DNA of 20,865 nt from Candidatus Desantisbacteria bacterium CG1_02_49_89 (lineage in GTDB: Bacteria; Desantisbacteria; UBA1551). The notes below the pieces were generated by a model. The model was not told where the DNA came from. It searched no databases and saw only the letters and a list, made by a program, of their open reading frames with translations. This document shows positions 5,797 through 20,865 of the stretch, in pieces (the stretch's first letter is position 1; the number at the start of each line of letters is the position of its first letter). The position numbers and the translations under genes are program-made. The stretch spans positions 1 through 20,865 of the forward strand of contig MNUP01000066.1 in the NCBI GenBank assembly GCA_001871075.1, written 5' to 3'.

Positions 5797-5837
5797 GTCA
5801 AATGTCAAAAGTCAAAGGTCAAATGTCAAAAGTGAAA
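5796..5837. repeat. Heptamer tandem array, unit NGTCAAA, starting at a stop codon
   Basis: Six exact 7-bp units follow each other: ggtcaaa, tgtcaaa, agtcaaa, ggtcaaa, tgtcaaa, agtgaaa. The first base varies in the order g, t, a, g, t, a, so there is also a 21-bp higher-order period. The first unit uses the last G of the TAG stop codon. Confidence 0.92.
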
Positions 5838-5910
5838 ACGAGTTTAGCCGGTTTGATCTGTTAAGCCAGTTTTGAACCTTAATCTCAATCTAAATTTTCA
5901 TCTGTTATTG

Positions 5911-5938
5911 CGATGCACGATGCACGACGGACGATGCA
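5911..5938. repeat. Heptamer tandem array, unit CGATGCA
   Basis: Four units (cgatgca, cgatgca, cgacgga, cgatgca) end 6 nt before the AAAGGAG that serves the rhamnosidase. The preceding 5838-5910 holds nothing I can identify. Confidence 0.85.
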
Positions 5939-5956
5939 CAAGAGAAAGGAGAAAAG

Positions 5957-8539
5957 ATGATACAGGCGGCAAAGGATCTAAGGACCGAGTACGCGGTGGA
6001 ACCGGTTGGGATAGACAGTGCGCAGCCGAGGTTTTCGTGGTGCCTTGAGCATGCGGAGCGGGGTCAGAAGCAGACAGCGTACCAGGTGGTCGTATCAGAC
6101 GGCAAAAAGGACGCGTGGGACACCGGGAAGGTGGTGTCAAGCGAAAATTTTGGGATAGTTTACGGGGGGAAGCCGCTTGAAAGCAATAAAACTTATTGTT
6201 GGAAGGTGAAATGGTGGGACAAGGACGGCGCAGAGAGCCTTTTCACCGGGTCTTGCTTTGACACCGGGTTACTGCAAGCGTCGGACTGGAAAGCGAAATG
6301 GATATGGGGCAAGAACCTTCTGCGCGGAACCTTCAAGATCGAGAAGGAAGTAAAAAGAGCGCGCGTTTTTGTCTGCGGCCTGGGTTTCCATGAACTCTAT
6401 ATCAACGGGAAGAAAGCCGGGGACAGGAAACTTGAGCCGGGGTGGACTGATTATAAAAAAATAGTTCTGTATTCTACGTTTGAAATTGAAGATCTGCTCA
6501 GAAAAGGCGAGAACGCGGTCGGCATAATGCTTGGGAACGGAAGGCACGTGCCGGATTATAAATATAGCAAGCCCAAGGCGATAATGCAGATCGAGATAGA
6601 GTTTACCGAAGGCGTGAGGCAGACCGTTATTACCGATGAGGCGTGGAAGACATGCCAGGGGCCGATTGTTTCCGACGGTATTTATCTGGGGGAAACATAT
6701 GACGCTCGTGAGGAAAAAAACGGCTGGGACATGCCGGGTTATGACGACGGTTCCTGGGAAAGGGCTGAGACCGCTGAACCTTCGGGCGGCAAACTTGTTT
6801 CTTCAGCCGGACTTTCGCCCGTCAGGATTGTGAAAACAATGCAGCCGAAGAAAATGACTGAACCGAAACCCGGGGTCTTCATTTTTGATTTCGGGCAGAA
6901 CTTCTCCGGATGGCTGAGGCTGCGCAGGTTGAAAGGCGCGAAAGGGACAGCCGTCACGATAAGGCATTCTGAGCTCGTCCGCGATGACGGAAACCTGAAT
7001 GCGATCCCCATGGGAGGGGCTAAGGCGGCAGACGTTTATATAATGAAAGGTGAAGGTATTGAAACATATGAGCCGCGGTTCACGTACCACGGTTTCAGGT
7101 TCGCCGAGATCACGGGTTTCCCTGGAATGCCGTCTCTTGACGACATCGAGGCAAAGGTCGTGCACTCAGACGTGGAACAGACAGGCAGCTTTTCCTGCTC
7201 TGACGACCTCATCAATGCTATTCACAAGATCATCCTGTGGGGACAGGTCTCAAACCTTATGAGCGTTCCCACTGACTGCCCGCAGAGGGCCGAAAGGATG
7301 GGCTGGATGGGAGATGCGCAGCTCTCAGCAGAGGAGGCGGTGCACAACTTCGATATGTCCGTGTTCTACCCCAAATACATCAGGGATATGAGGCACGCCC
7401 AGAAGGAATCAGGGGATGTGCCTGACGTGGTGCCGCCGTACTGGGACCCAGATCCGTCTGACCCGGCGTGGGGGACCGCGTATATTACGATATCCTGGCA
7501 CCTTTACCTTTATTACGGGGATAGAAGGATACTTGAGGAAAATTATGAGGGATTTAAAAAATGGATCTCGTACCTGGGTTCTGTTTCAAAAGATCTCATA
7601 GTGATGAAAAATACCTACGGGGACTGGTGCCCGCCCATGCAGGTAAAATCCTATTACACTCCCGGAGAGTTAACTTCAACCTGGTATTTTTACGAGAACT
7701 GCCTGCTTATAAGCCGCATAGCCAAACTCCTGGGAAACCCGCGGGACGAAAAGGACTACGCGGCGCTTGCCCAGAAAGTAAAGGAGGCGTTCAATAAAAC
7801 CTTCCTGAAAGAAACCTTTTACTGCGACCCGTACAGCCAGACAGCTAACCTCCTGCCGCTTTTCCTGGATATGGCGCCGCCTGAAAAACAGCAGAAGGTT
7901 GTTGAAACGCTTGTGAACACCGTGGTGGTGAATAACAGCTATCATCTTAACACAGGCATTATCGGAACCCGGTTCCTGTTCGAAACGCTTACGAAGTTTA
8001 ACAGGCCGGACATTGCTTTAAGGATAATAAAACAGGAGTCGTTCCCGGGATGGGGCTATATGATAAGGGAAGGCGCCACAACCGTATGGGAAAGGTGGGA
8101 GTACCTGGATGACGGTGGAATGAACTCGCACAACCACATAATGCTGGGAAGCGTGGACGCCTGGTTCTACAGGAAGCTTGCCGGCATACAGGTTGACCCC
8201 GATAATCCCGGTTTTGAGAAAATGACCATAAGCCCGTATTTCGCGCCTGATTTGAAATTCGCCGGCGCTTCAATGCGCACCGTCCGCGGGTTTGTTTCAT
8301 CCGGATGGGAGAGGAAAAACGGGAACACTGTCCTGAAGATCAGTATCCCTGTAGGCAGCACGGCTTCAGTGGTCCTGCCCGCGAAAGAAAGCTCTGCGGT
8401 CACGGAAAGCGGCAAGGCGGTCTGGAAGGACGGGAAATTCGTGTCCGGGAGCGCCGGCGTAAAGAACGCTGAAGTTGAGCAGGACAACATTGTGATAGAG
8501 GTCAGCTCTGGGAACTATTTGTTTGAGATTAATAAATAA
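5957..8539 (+). CDS. Alpha-L-rhamnosidase, GH78
   Basis: This 860-aa enzyme hydrolyses terminal alpha-L-rhamnose. Visible order: N-terminal Ig/Fn3-like domain (about 1-110), Bac_rhamnosid_N domain (about 115-290, FRG-type beta with LYINGKKAGD and PGWTDY), a concanavalin-like domain with FDFGQNFSGW (about 310-400), the six-hairpin catalytic domain (about 410-760) and a C-terminal beta domain. The catalytic signature DCPQRAERMGWMGDA starts at Asp440, with likely general acid Glu446; GATTVWERWE carries the likely base Glu712. There is no signal peptide, so it should act in the cytoplasm on imported oligosaccharides. Shine-Dalgarno AAAGGAG is 5 nt before the ATG. The length is typical. Its position upstream of the sulfatase cluster suggests a shared carbohydrate substrate. 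Confidence 0.96.
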   Translation: MIQAAKDLRTEYAVEPVGIDSAQPRFSWCLEHAERGQKQTAYQVVVSDGKKDAWDTGKVVSSENFGIVYGGKPLESNKTYCWKVKWWDKDGAESLFTGSCFDTGLLQASDWKAKWIWGKNLLRGTFKIEKEVKRARVFVCGLGFHELYINGKKAGDRKLEPGWTDYKKIVLYSTFEIEDLLRKGENAVGIMLGNGRHVPDYKYSKPKAIMQIEIEFTEGVRQTVITDEAWKTCQGPIVSDGIYLGETYDAREEKNGWDMPGYDDGSWERAETAEPSGGKLVSSAGLSPVRIVKTMQPKKMTEPKPGVFIFDFGQNFSGWLRLRRLKGAKGTAVTIRHSELVRDDGNLNAIPMGGAKAADVYIMKGEGIETYEPRFTYHGFRFAEITGFPGMPSLDDIEAKVVHSDVEQTGSFSCSDDLINAIHKIILWGQVSNLMSVPTDCPQRAERMGWMGDAQLSAEEAVHNFDMSVFYPKYIRDMRHAQKESGDVPDVVPPYWDPDPSDPAWGTAYITISWHLYLYYGDRRILEENYEGFKKWISYLGSVSKDLIVMKNTYGDWCPPMQVKSYYTPGELTSTWYFYENCLLISRIAKLLGNPRDEKDYAALAQKVKEAFNKTFLKETFYCDPYSQTANLLPLFLDMAPPEKQQKVVETLVNTVVVNNSYHLNTGIIGTRFLFETLTKFNRPDIALRIIKQESFPGWGYMIREGATTVWERWEYLDDGGMNSHNHIMLGSVDAWFYRKLAGIQVDPDNPGFEKMTISPYFAPDLKFAGASMRTVRGFVSSGWERKNGNTVLKISIPVGSTASVVLPAKESSAVTESGKAVWKDGKFVSGSAGVKNAEVEQDNIVIEVSSGNYLFEINK

Positions 8540-11581: not shown

Positions 11582-11716
11582 AGTTTAGAAGTCTTGGGGT
11601 CGAGGAGTCTGGGGGTCTAGGGGTCAAGGCTTTGACTCCAAGACTCCAGGTTCCGACGCAAAGTCGGGACGACTCTTAGACTCTAAGGCTCGCTATTTTT
11701 CAACGCGAGCCGACTC
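11582..11716. repeat. Octamer island, copy 1 (RGTCNNGG array with inverted arm)
   Basis: After the stop, a degenerate unit and five octamers (agtcttgg, ggtcgagg, agtctggg, ggtctagg, ggtcaagg; 11590-11629) lead to an inverted arm containing CCAAGACT, a small hairpin ccgac...gtcgg and further inverted pieces. It ends in tatttttcaacgcgagccg plus actc (11694-11716); that 23-nt tail is identical at 17401-17423. GGCTCGC (11687-11693) also pairs with GCGAGCC (11705-11711) in this copy. The island fills most of the gap before the next gene. Confidence 0.88.
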
Positions 11717-13407: not shown

Positions 13408-13695
13408 ATGAAAAACCAATATTATATTTATATAATGACCAACAAAGGAAACACCGTTCTTTATACGGGAGTAACCAATGATTTGAAACGGAGAGTTTGT
13501 GAACATAAAGAAAAACTTGCCGAAGGGTTTACAAAGAAATATAATGCCGTAAAACTTGTATACCATGAAGTTTTTAATGATATACGTGATGCAATCACGA
13601 GAGAAAAACAGATAAAAGGTGGTTCGAGAAGAAAGAAAATTGATATGATAAATAGCTTTAACAAAAAATGGAAAGACCTGTACAATGAGATTTGA
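13408..13695 (+). CDS. GIY-YIG domain protein, putative endonuclease
   Basis: The 95-aa protein is close to a bare GIY-YIG domain: YYIYIMTN and LYTGVTNDLKRRVCEHK provide the YIY/YTG signature and the catalytic-type Arg, and REKQIKGGSRRKK holds the conserved Glu. Such proteins (UrvC/UPF0213-like) are nucleases in principle; the cellular role is unknown. I see no Shine-Dalgarno before the ATG, which lies 3 nt after a repeat arm. The gene is AT- and Lys-rich compared with its neighbours, and it is enclosed by inverted arms of the TGTCATTGCGA repeat (13362-13404 and 13723-13765). It interrupts an otherwise carbohydrate-related gene run, so it is probably a mobile passenger. Confidence 0.92.
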   Translation: MKNQYYIYIMTNKGNTVLYTGVTNDLKRRVCEHKEKLAEGFTKKYNAVKLVYHEVFNDIRDAITREKQIKGGSRRKKIDMINSFNKKWKDLYNEI

Positions 13696-14691: not shown

Positions 14692-14729
14692 ATTCATAAT
14701 TCATAATTCATAACTCATAATTCATAATT
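14692..14729. repeat. Heptamer tandem array, unit ATTCATA
   Basis: Five units (attcata, attcata, attcata, actcata, attcata) plus att. It lies 35 nt after the isomerase stop and 24 nt before the next Shine-Dalgarno. Confidence 0.92.
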
Positions 14730-17231: not shown

Positions 17232-17423
17232 AGTCTGGGAGTCGAGGGGTCTGGGGGTCTGGGAGTCTGGGAGTCGAGGAGTCTTGGGGTCTGGGAGTCG
17301 AGGAGTCTTGGGGTCTAGGAGTCTAGGGGTCAAGGCTTTTAACTCCAAGACTCCAGATCCCGACATAAAGTCGGGATGACTCCCAGACTCTAAGACTCAA
17401 TATTTTTCAACGCGAGCCGACTC
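17232..17423. repeat. Octamer island, copy 2 (13 RGTCNNGG units with inverted arm)
   Basis: Thirteen uninterrupted octamers (17232-17335) start at the base after the esterase stop: units such as agtctggg, agtcgagg, ggtctggg, agtcttgg, ending ggtcaagg. Then cttttaact leads to an inverted arm with CCAAGACT, CCCAGACT and CTAAGACT around a central hairpin ATCCCGAC...GTCGGGAT. It ends with the same 23-nt tail as copy 1 (17401-17423), 6 nt before AGGAGG. This is the intact form against which the interrupted copy at 20544-20865 can be compared. Confidence 0.93.
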
Positions 17424-17440
17424 CTAAACAGGAGGTTGCA

Positions 17441-18814: not shown

Positions 18815-18846
18815 AGTATCAGAGTATCAAAGTATCAGAGTGTCAG
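18815..18846. repeat. Octamer tandem array, unit AGTRTCAR, starting at a stop codon
   Basis: Four 8-bp units (agtatcag, agtatcaa, agtatcag, agtgtcag) begin at the base directly after the TAA stop of the preceding gene. Confidence 0.92.
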
Positions 18847-18870
18847 AGCAATAACAAGGAATATTATTGT

Positions 18871-20101: not shown

Positions 20102-20106
20102 CAGTT

Positions 20107-20131
20107 ATCCCGACAAAATAACTGTCGGGAT
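20107..20131. terminator. Hairpin after the secreted-protein gene (terminator-like or repeat core)
   Basis: ATCCCGACA-AAATAAC-TGTCGGGAT is a 9-bp perfect stem, 5 nt after the stop. No T-run follows, so termination is doubtful. It resembles the central CCCGAC...GTCGGG hairpin of the octamer islands and leads directly into octamers. Confidence 0.4.
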
Positions 20132-20170
20132 CTGGAGTCTAGGGGTCTGGGAGTCTGGGAGTCGAGGAGT
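20128..20170 (+). repeat. Octamer array upstream of the four-helix-bundle gene
   Basis: Units ggatctgg, agtctagg, ggtctggg, agtctggg and agtcgagg run to 20167, followed by a partial unit agt and then aactg before the ATG. It is the same RGTCNNGG family as 17232-17335. Confidence 0.9.
20165..20169 (+). promoter_or_regulatory. Shine-Dalgarno formed by the octamer repeat
   Basis: AGGAG spans the junction of the unit agtcgagg and the next agt, 6 nt before the ATG at 20176. The same agtcgagg-agt junction occurs at other places in the arrays where no gene follows. Confidence 0.75.
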
Positions 20171-20175
20171 AACTG

Positions 20176-20541
20176 ATGGGAAAAATAGAAAGATTTGAGG
20201 ACATGCAGGCCTGGCAGAAGGCAAGAGAGCTGAACAAAGAAATAAATAAAATCATAAAGAAGCCATTGTTCTTTAAGGACTTCTTTTTACGTGACCAGAT
20301 ACGCAGGGCTTCGGGTTCTATAATGACCAATATTGCGGAAGGTTTCGGAAGGAGAACAGATAAAGAGATGTCTAATTTCCTTAACATGGCGCACGGTTCA
20401 GCCGCTGAGGTGCACTGCCATCTTTATGCCGCGCTGGATATGGAATATATAACCAGGGAAGAATTTAGAGATTTATATGAAAAGGTCGAGACGGTTTCAA
20501 GGATGATCCAGAGTTTTATGAACTATTTGAATAAGAACTAA
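20176..20541 (+). CDS. Four-helix-bundle protein (S23 / 23S rRNA-intervening-sequence family)
   Basis: The 121-aa protein matches the four-helix-bundle family PF05635: FEDMQAWQKARELNKEIN at the N-terminus, LRDQIRRASGSIMTNIAEG (helix 2 hallmark), FGRRTDKEMSNFLNMAHGS and a helix with EVHCHLYAALDMEYI. The length is usual. Family members include proteins encoded in 23S rRNA intervening sequences and relatives of the diversity-generating-retroelement accessory protein Avd; most have no known function. The gene is flanked on both sides by RGTCNNGG octamers (20128-20167 and 20544-20631), and its Shine-Dalgarno comes from the upstream array. No rRNA gene or reverse transcriptase is in the window. It looks like a passenger of the repeat. 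Confidence 0.93.
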   Translation: MGKIERFEDMQAWQKARELNKEINKIIKKPLFFKDFFLRDQIRRASGSIMTNIAEGFGRRTDKEMSNFLNMAHGSAAEVHCHLYAALDMEYITREEFRDLYEKVETVSRMIQSFMNYLNKN

Positions 20542-20642
20542 AGGGTCTGGGAGTCTAAGGGTCTAGGAGTCTTGGGGTCTGGGAGTCTAAGGGTCTAGGA
20601 GTCTTGGGGTCTAGGAGTCTAGGGGTCAAGGCTTTTAACTCC

Positions 20643-20806
20643 TAGTGTGGTGTCTCTAACAGATCTTTACATTTGGGCTTTGCGAGGAGTGTTAACGACG
20701 AAGCAATCTCGACCTAAAAATCGAGATTGCCACGCTCCCTTTGGTCGCTCGCAATGACAACTCAAAGCAGAATCAAATGTCAAGGGATTTATGTGACACC
20801 ACACTA
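20643..20806. mobile_element. MITE-like element with TA target duplication
   Basis: The terminal inverted repeats GTGTGGTGTC (20645-20654) and GACACCACAC (20795-20804) are perfect and each is flanked by TA (20643-20644, 20805-20806). Imperfect inverted similarity continues to ACATTTG (20669-20675) and CAAATGT (20774-20780). There is no transposase ORF. Flanking TA and short TIRs fit an IS630/Tc1-mariner-type mechanism. It sits inside the inverted arm of octamer island copy 3, and it contains a TGTCATTGCGA-family palindrome. Confidence 0.85.
20679..20760. repeat. TGTCATTGCGA-family palindrome inside the MITE
   Basis: TTTGCGAGG and GAAGCAATCTCGA form the left half, and TCGAGATTGC and GCTCGCAATGACAA the right half, around the loop cctaaaaa. 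The left terminus has diverged (the expected TCA before TTGCGAG is lost). Confidence 0.85.
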
Positions 20807-20865
20807 GACTCCAGATCCCGACATAAAGTCGGGATGACTCCCAGACTCTAAGACTCAATATTTTT

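Follow-up and report, generated by a model that had tools for sequence, protein, structure and literature searches.

Introduction

Genes of the PF05635 family (23S_rRNA_IVP) owe their name to open reading frames (ORFs) found within rRNA intervening sequences, where inverted ends allow a stem to form with the ORF in its loop. IVP ORFs occur also in 16S and 23S rRNA insertions of the Candidate Phyla Radiation (CPR) (PMC11270868), and a CRISPR survey names the family in a figure legend (PMC10910872). Arrays of short tandem repeats have been described as well: the heptamers GGGAATC of Xanthomonas and GGGGAYT of Nostoc are viewed as simple or G-quadruplex repeats, generally with no mobile-element association found (PMC4692102), TAACTGA repeats have been reported (PMC4679880), and inverted octanucleotides of Geobacter were presented as "regulator sites" (PMC2700814). 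Here we analyse the PF05635 gene lying between octamer arrays at positions 20176-20541 of a 20,865-nucleotide stretch (contig MNUP01000066.1, hereafter the window) from Candidatus Desantisbacteria bacterium CG1_02_49_89. Sequence comparison makes it very probable that such a gene and its inverted tandem-repeat arms constitute a mobile unit. One small mobile element made of gene and arrays, with the protein role and the help in trans proposed below, is in our view probably the best overall explanation. Neither a link between PF05635 and tandem arrays nor an earlier mobile element with tandem-repeat inverted ends was found in the literature, most subscription papers lying outside the search.

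The window gene and its arms

The 121-residue window protein matches PF05635 with 120.5 bits (cut-off 33.8; profile positions 1-105 of 106) and TIGR02436 with 115.5 (cut-off 24), a full-length match above the curated cut-off that places it among the four-helix-bundle (IVP) proteins. Residues common to PF05635 proteins are, in window numbering, W13, S48, N52-G56, F68, S75 and E78, among which no catalytic signature seems recognisable; the crystallised relatives in the Protein Data Bank, 2gsc and 2rld, each contain five chains. Entry 2gsc is XCC0516 of Xanthomonas campestris ATCC 33913, for which 70 GGGAATC pairs in inverted orientation are described (PMC4692102). The features of the element and of its gene-less copies in the window are the following.

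20105-20133, plus strand: left outer terminus, comprising the GTCGGGAT palindrome and the beginning of TGTCGGGATCTGGAGTCTAG (20123-20142; perfect inverse at 20804-20823, inverted repeat of 100%)
20134-20170, plus strand: left arm, the octamer RGTCNNGG repeated about 4.6 times with its G-rich strand toward the element interior, holding the AGGAG used as Shine-Dalgarno sequence
20176-20541, plus strand: four-helix-bundle gene (PF05635 23S_rRNA_IVP / TIGR02436), 121 aa, from profile matches
20541-20631, plus strand: inner array of about 11 direct octamers straight after the stop codon
20642-20807, no strand assigned: nested insert, a 34-nt inverted repeat CTAGTGTGGTGTC...GACACCACACTAG flanking a REP-like (repetitive extragenic palindromic) palindrome at about 20680-20765; it splits the right terminus and is not in the aligned copies
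20804-20865, minus strand: right terminus and inverted right arm CTAGACTCCAGATCCCGACA...GACTCCCAGACTCTAAGACTC, reaching the contig end
11582-11720, plus strand: gene-less hairpin version of the octamer element, inverted partner at 11630-11645
17232-17425, plus strand: gene-less copy of the octamer element with 13 octamers and an inverted 3' terminus, inverted partner at 17382-17397

A preliminary description of this DNA had placed a PF05635 gene between RGTCNNGG octamer arrays, and both its coordinates and its family assignment are borne out. The upstream octamers stop at 20167, 8 nt short of the ATG, and the downstream ones restart at 20543, the TAA occupying 20539-20541; RGTCNNGGRGTCNNGG has 32 matches in the window with at most one mismatch, against 0.21 expected. 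The gene had been pictured as embedded in a single direct array, a picture that finds no support. The arms are inverted: a perfect 20-nt inverted repeat pairs 20123-20142 with 20804-20823, and in the mirrored third arm (20804-20865) the octamers at 20836-20861 run opposite to those of the left arm up to the contig end, the right arm being interrupted by the 166-bp insert at 20642-20807. The unit, moreover, is specific to each locus, and it is the inverted arrangement with a locus-specific unit that is the diagnostic feature. A direct inner array after the stop codon is found also at a Balneolaceae locus (L113).

The AGGAG at 20165-20169, 6 nt ahead of the ATG, does straddle two octamer units as had been described. 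The further idea that the array is a meaningful supplier of the ribosome-binding site is not supported. The arms of four plasmid elements (L209-L212) stop about 40 bp before the start codon; the array-derived Shine-Dalgarno sequence was thus rejected as a general feature, and that of the window gene is incidental.

The islands at 11582 (about 11590) and 17232 are indeed gene-less, as first noted, but they are not simple islands: each has an inverted partner and is therefore a hairpin. Together with one on contig C81 they align to the right-hand portion of the copy that has the gene, whose 3' terminus they share, which identifies them as gene-less copies of one element. These copies are predicted to fold as DNA hairpins.

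Presence and absence on cyanobacterial plasmids

The strongest evidence came from plasmid records. Three plasmid sites were found occupied in some cyanobacteria and free of both gene and arrays in close relatives. At the first, an integrase gene is followed in two Calothrix plasmids (L209/L210) by a PF05635 gene between AAGGGTATAGGGTGTAGGGTGTGGGGTGTAG and its inverse, while the same site in Tolypothrix (92% identical), Aulosira (90%) and Nostoc carneum (L219-L221) has 3-5 bp between stop and ATG and no array. The second lies after a TraM-like gene, where two Nostoc plasmids (L211/L212) have a PF05635 gene with GGGAACA arms and three relatives (L218, L222, L223) are empty; Nostoc ATCC 53789 (94%; L217) carries there a gene-less GGGAACA hairpin, and plasmid p057_H of Nostoc C057 (L292) a different gene-less hairpin. 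At the third, in Aulosira plasmid2 (L289), the gene sits antisense between two genes with TTCAAAA arms, and seven relatives are empty. Occupied sites have both gene and arms and close relatives have neither, so that the two move together, and their joint arrival at sites array-free in relatives argues for a mobile element whose inverted ends consist of tandem repeats.

Arm-bearing PF05635 genes are also found in type I-D and III-B CRISPR operons of cyanobacterial plasmids (L215/L216, L294, L295), where they separate cas6 from cas4 and cmr2 from cmr3. At that cas6-cas4 position the Dolichospermum relative has a palindromic insert of another kind. An empty cas6-cas4 site was considered for Anabaena sp. 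90 and rejected, as a 99%-identical relative bears a different palindromic insert there.

Arrays and PF05635 loci in the source genome

The array survey of the source genome (G000) covered 80 of its 150 contigs, with at most 20 kb from each, plus the window (1.03 Mb in all). Arrays of period 7-10 numbered 495 in it and 2 in shuffled sequence, and periods 2-6 were nearly absent. The genome has about ten PF05635 genes, most with short arrays on both sides, the upstream and downstream units being reverse complements of each other and the unit differing from gene to gene; a second genome has the same pattern of one unit per PF05635 gene. When each upstream flank was aligned with the downstream flank of the same gene in reverse complement, the resulting inverted flank score was 17-34.5 at all nine testable loci and exceeded every cross-locus pairing (the tenth locus is cut by a contig end). 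Eight of the nine have 7-8-bp arrays with a unit of their own, and L007 lacks a clear period-7/8 array. Nine PF05635 loci have units that belong to nine separate unit families of 3-42 arrays each, and nine units are also present as gene-less arrays elsewhere in the genome. Among inverted same-unit array pairs 250-600 bp apart, 7 of 12 enclose a PF05635 gene; the 32 pairs less than 60 bp apart are all gene-less hairpins.

About 20 hairpins of this genome with AATTATG arms (e.g., L172:6632-6735, L161:3986-4098) have the palindromic loop CAACnGCAAGGA...TCCTTGCnGTTG in common, and a hairpin with arms of the octamer GCGTGTCA has the same kind of loop, so that loop and arms seem exchangeable. The AATTATG unit is used by no PF05635 gene. 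Other 7-8-bp arrays with different units, intergenic or overlapping gene ends, occur in the window at 562-596, 749-779, 5797-5838, 5911-5957, 14692-14729 and 18815-18848, two of them starting immediately at the stop codon that ends the preceding gene.

Survey across phyla and control genes

The wider PF05635 sample was drawn from scattered genomes and 80 named contigs, the latter from Chloroflexi, Neomarinimicrobiota, Omnitrophica, Elusimicrobia, Nitrospirae, Verrucomicrobia, Bacteroidota, Cyanobacteria and other phyla. With a pass threshold set at an inverted flank score of at least 17, 81 of 110 PF05635 loci passed, versus 5 of 105 control ORFs from the same loci; among the top-scoring controls were one GxxExxY gene and one Y1 transposase accompanied by REP palindromes, the latter a known positive. 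Many Chloroflexi loci represent one orthologous site, and collapsing left 66 independent sites, of which 47.4 (72%) pass (Fisher 6e-21), inverted flanks beating direct ones by about 56 to 10. Inverted arms were detected at 1 of 27 PIN genes and 2 of 13 small GIY-YIG genes taken as small-gene controls. The preliminary description had tentatively linked gene and array as cargo or mobility partner, and the inverted flanks at about 47 of the 66 sites, along with the gene-free alleles of the three plasmid sites, uphold that link; the outcome it had named as refuting, array flanks no commoner than at unrelated genes, did not occur. Of 76 PF05635 loci, 67 have the G-rich strand directed inward, as have 33 of 38 gene-less hairpins. 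GxxExxY (PF13366), likewise an orphan family, has inverted arms at 17 of 20 loci, with units of 8-10 bp (L173:6371-6988, L199-L202, L264-L288).

Two further ideas were discarded: that weak-arm PF05635 loci are rRNA insertions (rRNA was present at none of 19 loci checked, nor at L214), and that all units have a GT core in common (no excess over shuffled composition, z = 1.3). Some individual loci deserve mention in their own right. The window itself has, at 13408-13695, a small GIY-YIG gene with inverted REP-type flanks TGTCATTGCGA...GCAATCCC, most other GIY-YIG genes tested being without such arms. In another genome (G009; contigs C2, C3, C7, C12 and C13) many PF05635-like small genes form close opposite-facing pairs, e.g., C7:104028-104225 (minus) and 104402-104554 (plus), unlike the other genomes examined.

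A proposed mechanism

The proposed element, non-autonomous, would be about 0.5-0.75 kb long, with PF05635 as its sole gene and with termini made of inverted arms of 7-8-bp tandem units, G-rich strand inward. In single-stranded DNA or RNA the arms may fold into a long hairpin, and the PF05635 protein would recognise its cognate arms and aid the copying or keeping of its repeat family; that the protein acts on its own arms is a proposal to which we give slightly less than an even chance. Strand transfer would depend on an enzyme acting in trans, the likeliest candidate being a Y1/HUH single-strand transposase of the RAYT (REP-associated tyrosine transposase)/IS200 kind, as proposed for REPINs (hairpin-forming REP doublets). 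Y1_Tnp is present in 17 of 17 genomes with PF05635 versus 11 of 24 without (p = 1.5e-4), with a copy-number Spearman correlation of 0.67, and neither reverse transcriptase nor DDE transposase is associated with PF05635 across these 41 genomes; a partnership with reverse transcriptase was accordingly rejected. Such co-occurrence with Y1/HUH but not with the other two enzymes, for an element that has no catalytic enzyme gene, suggests help in trans, although the specific involvement of an HUH enzyme is a conjecture we hold rather doubtful. GxxExxY was found in 10 of 17 genomes with PF05635 and in 1 of 24 without. At L191 (G000:C114; 4832-10304) a Y1 transposase, a PF05635 gene and two GxxExxY genes lie inside 6 kb.

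Several observations weigh against this picture. The association with HUH enzymes is correlative, drawn from 41 genomes, and may be confounded. The presence/absence evidence comes from plasmid sites, none of it from the window site, and mobility was read from sequence comparison, with no transposition event or excision product observed. At the three plasmid sites, with flanks diverged by 8-25% and target sequence partly different, no target-site duplication is evident. Inverted arms went undetected at about a quarter of PF05635 loci; some of these are fused or long ORFs, and one (L023) adjoins a reverse transcriptase. The gene is retained at an orthologous Anaerolineales site across many species (L043 and up to 19 related loci), which means that not all copies are active and suggests that some settled long ago. 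Finally, at least two of the four window-family copies adjoin sulfatase genes, which leaves some probability to duplication of gene cassettes in that family.

Alternative explanations

Two alternatives survive best, each judged unlikely but worth serious attention. The first is an RNA-level element akin to the 23S rRNA intervening sequences, with the gene in the loop of a transcript stem selected for RNase III processing, mRNA protection or protein autoregulation, and spreading via RNA. The origin of the family name and the CPR insertions fit this idea, and the transcript of one Nostoc plasmid element (L211) is predicted to fold with fully paired arms (z = -5.3). Arm similarity at the orthologous Chloroflexi site is 0.51 within loci and 0.39 between species, so pairing is apparently maintained, in a comparison biased somewhat toward this result by arms having been picked for their within-locus match. 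The polarity of the arrays, however, is one of inward versus outward, identical on both strands, ORF-less hairpins are abundant, the Aulosira element is antisense to its operon, and the presence of reverse transcriptase does not follow that of PF05635.

In the second, to which we attach a similarly low probability, an unrelated HUH enzyme moves inverted-array hairpins and the PF05635 gene is mere cargo with some other role. That Y1_Tnp follows both presence and copy number of PF05635 suits this possibility, as do the excess of gene-less hairpins over gene-bearing elements and the existence of GxxExxY as a second cargo family inside similar arms of 8-10-bp units. On the other hand, each PF05635 gene of the source genome has its own unit family, and protein identity correlates with arm similarity (Mantel 0/500), though the closest pairs are orthologous sites; as proof of specificity the correlation is weakened, all most-similar pairs checked having flanking genes in common.

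Homologous recombination could carry the gene between pre-existing arrays, given that same-unit arrays are scattered over the genome, but the empty plasmid sites contain no array and we consider this very improbable. Coincidence in array-rich genomes, which might be invoked because arrays lie within 250 bp of 45% of ordinary source-genome ORFs of 60-400 aa, and on both sides of 15%, is refuted by the controls at their present sample size and has next to no remaining probability: under the strict array rule inverted same-unit bracketing occurs at 4 of 811 other ORFs versus 5 of 10 PF05635 loci, the controls of the broad sample agree, and the empty sites are entirely array-free.

Significance

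The mobile element proposed here would join two old puzzles, the role of the very widespread PF05635 proteins and the origin of the 7-8-bp tandem arrays of many bacterial genomes, and would allow repeats classified as regulator-binding sites or G-quadruplexes to be reinterpreted. The PF05635 genes in CRISPR operons (cas6-cas4, cmr2-cmr3) are suggested to be insertions and not Cas parts. More speculatively, and with rather more doubt than belief, PF05635 proteins might be dedicated drivers of unrecognised pan-bacterial mobile elements, each reading its own 7-8-bp unit, with rRNA intervening sequences being the same elements inside rRNA, much unexplained heptamer content their debris, and nuclease-fold GxxExxY genes the drivers of a parallel 8-10-bp class. 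A prediction is that PF05635-rich genomes should be rich in unit-matched gene-less hairpins, and array-free alleles are now at hand for mobility studies.

Comparison with known systems

Avd of the diversity-generating retroelements (PF22296 bAvd) belongs to a related family, and some of the plasmid proteins match bAvd weakly. The window gene, unlike Avd, has no adjacent reverse transcriptase, the sole RVT_1 match of the source genome being on another contig (C119), and the only copy found beside a reverse transcriptase (L023) is armless. The GGGAATC/GGGGAYT and TAACTGA repeats, the Geobacter sites and the cyanobacterial short tandemly repeated repetitive (STRR) sequences resemble the arms in being short tandem arrays, often in inverted pairs, and would be the gene-less counterpart of the element; none is tied to PF05635 in its description. 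Simple sequence repeats and STRR sequences are independent one-direction arrays, whereas the present arms are inverted and come and go with the gene. Terminal inverted repeats with presence/absence at orthologous sites, typical of miniature inverted-repeat transposable elements, were found in the comparison of plasmid relatives.

The rRNA intervening sequences with an IVP ORF, including the CPR insertions (PMC11270868), have the same protein family. They differ in location, as the copies described here lie between protein genes or in operons (the window has no Rfam match), and in their ends, the arms here being tandem arrays.

REPINs and their RAYT transposases (PMC3116915) provide the closest functional model. 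The differences are that the arms here are tandem 7-8-bp arrays and not single REP palindromes, and that the gene encodes a four-helix bundle and not an HUH transposase, Pfam giving PF05635 alone for the window gene. Both systems consist of hairpin-forming inverted repeats that are extragenic and dispersed between genes, with many gene-less copies, repeat families tied to protein genes and mostly non-autonomous members.
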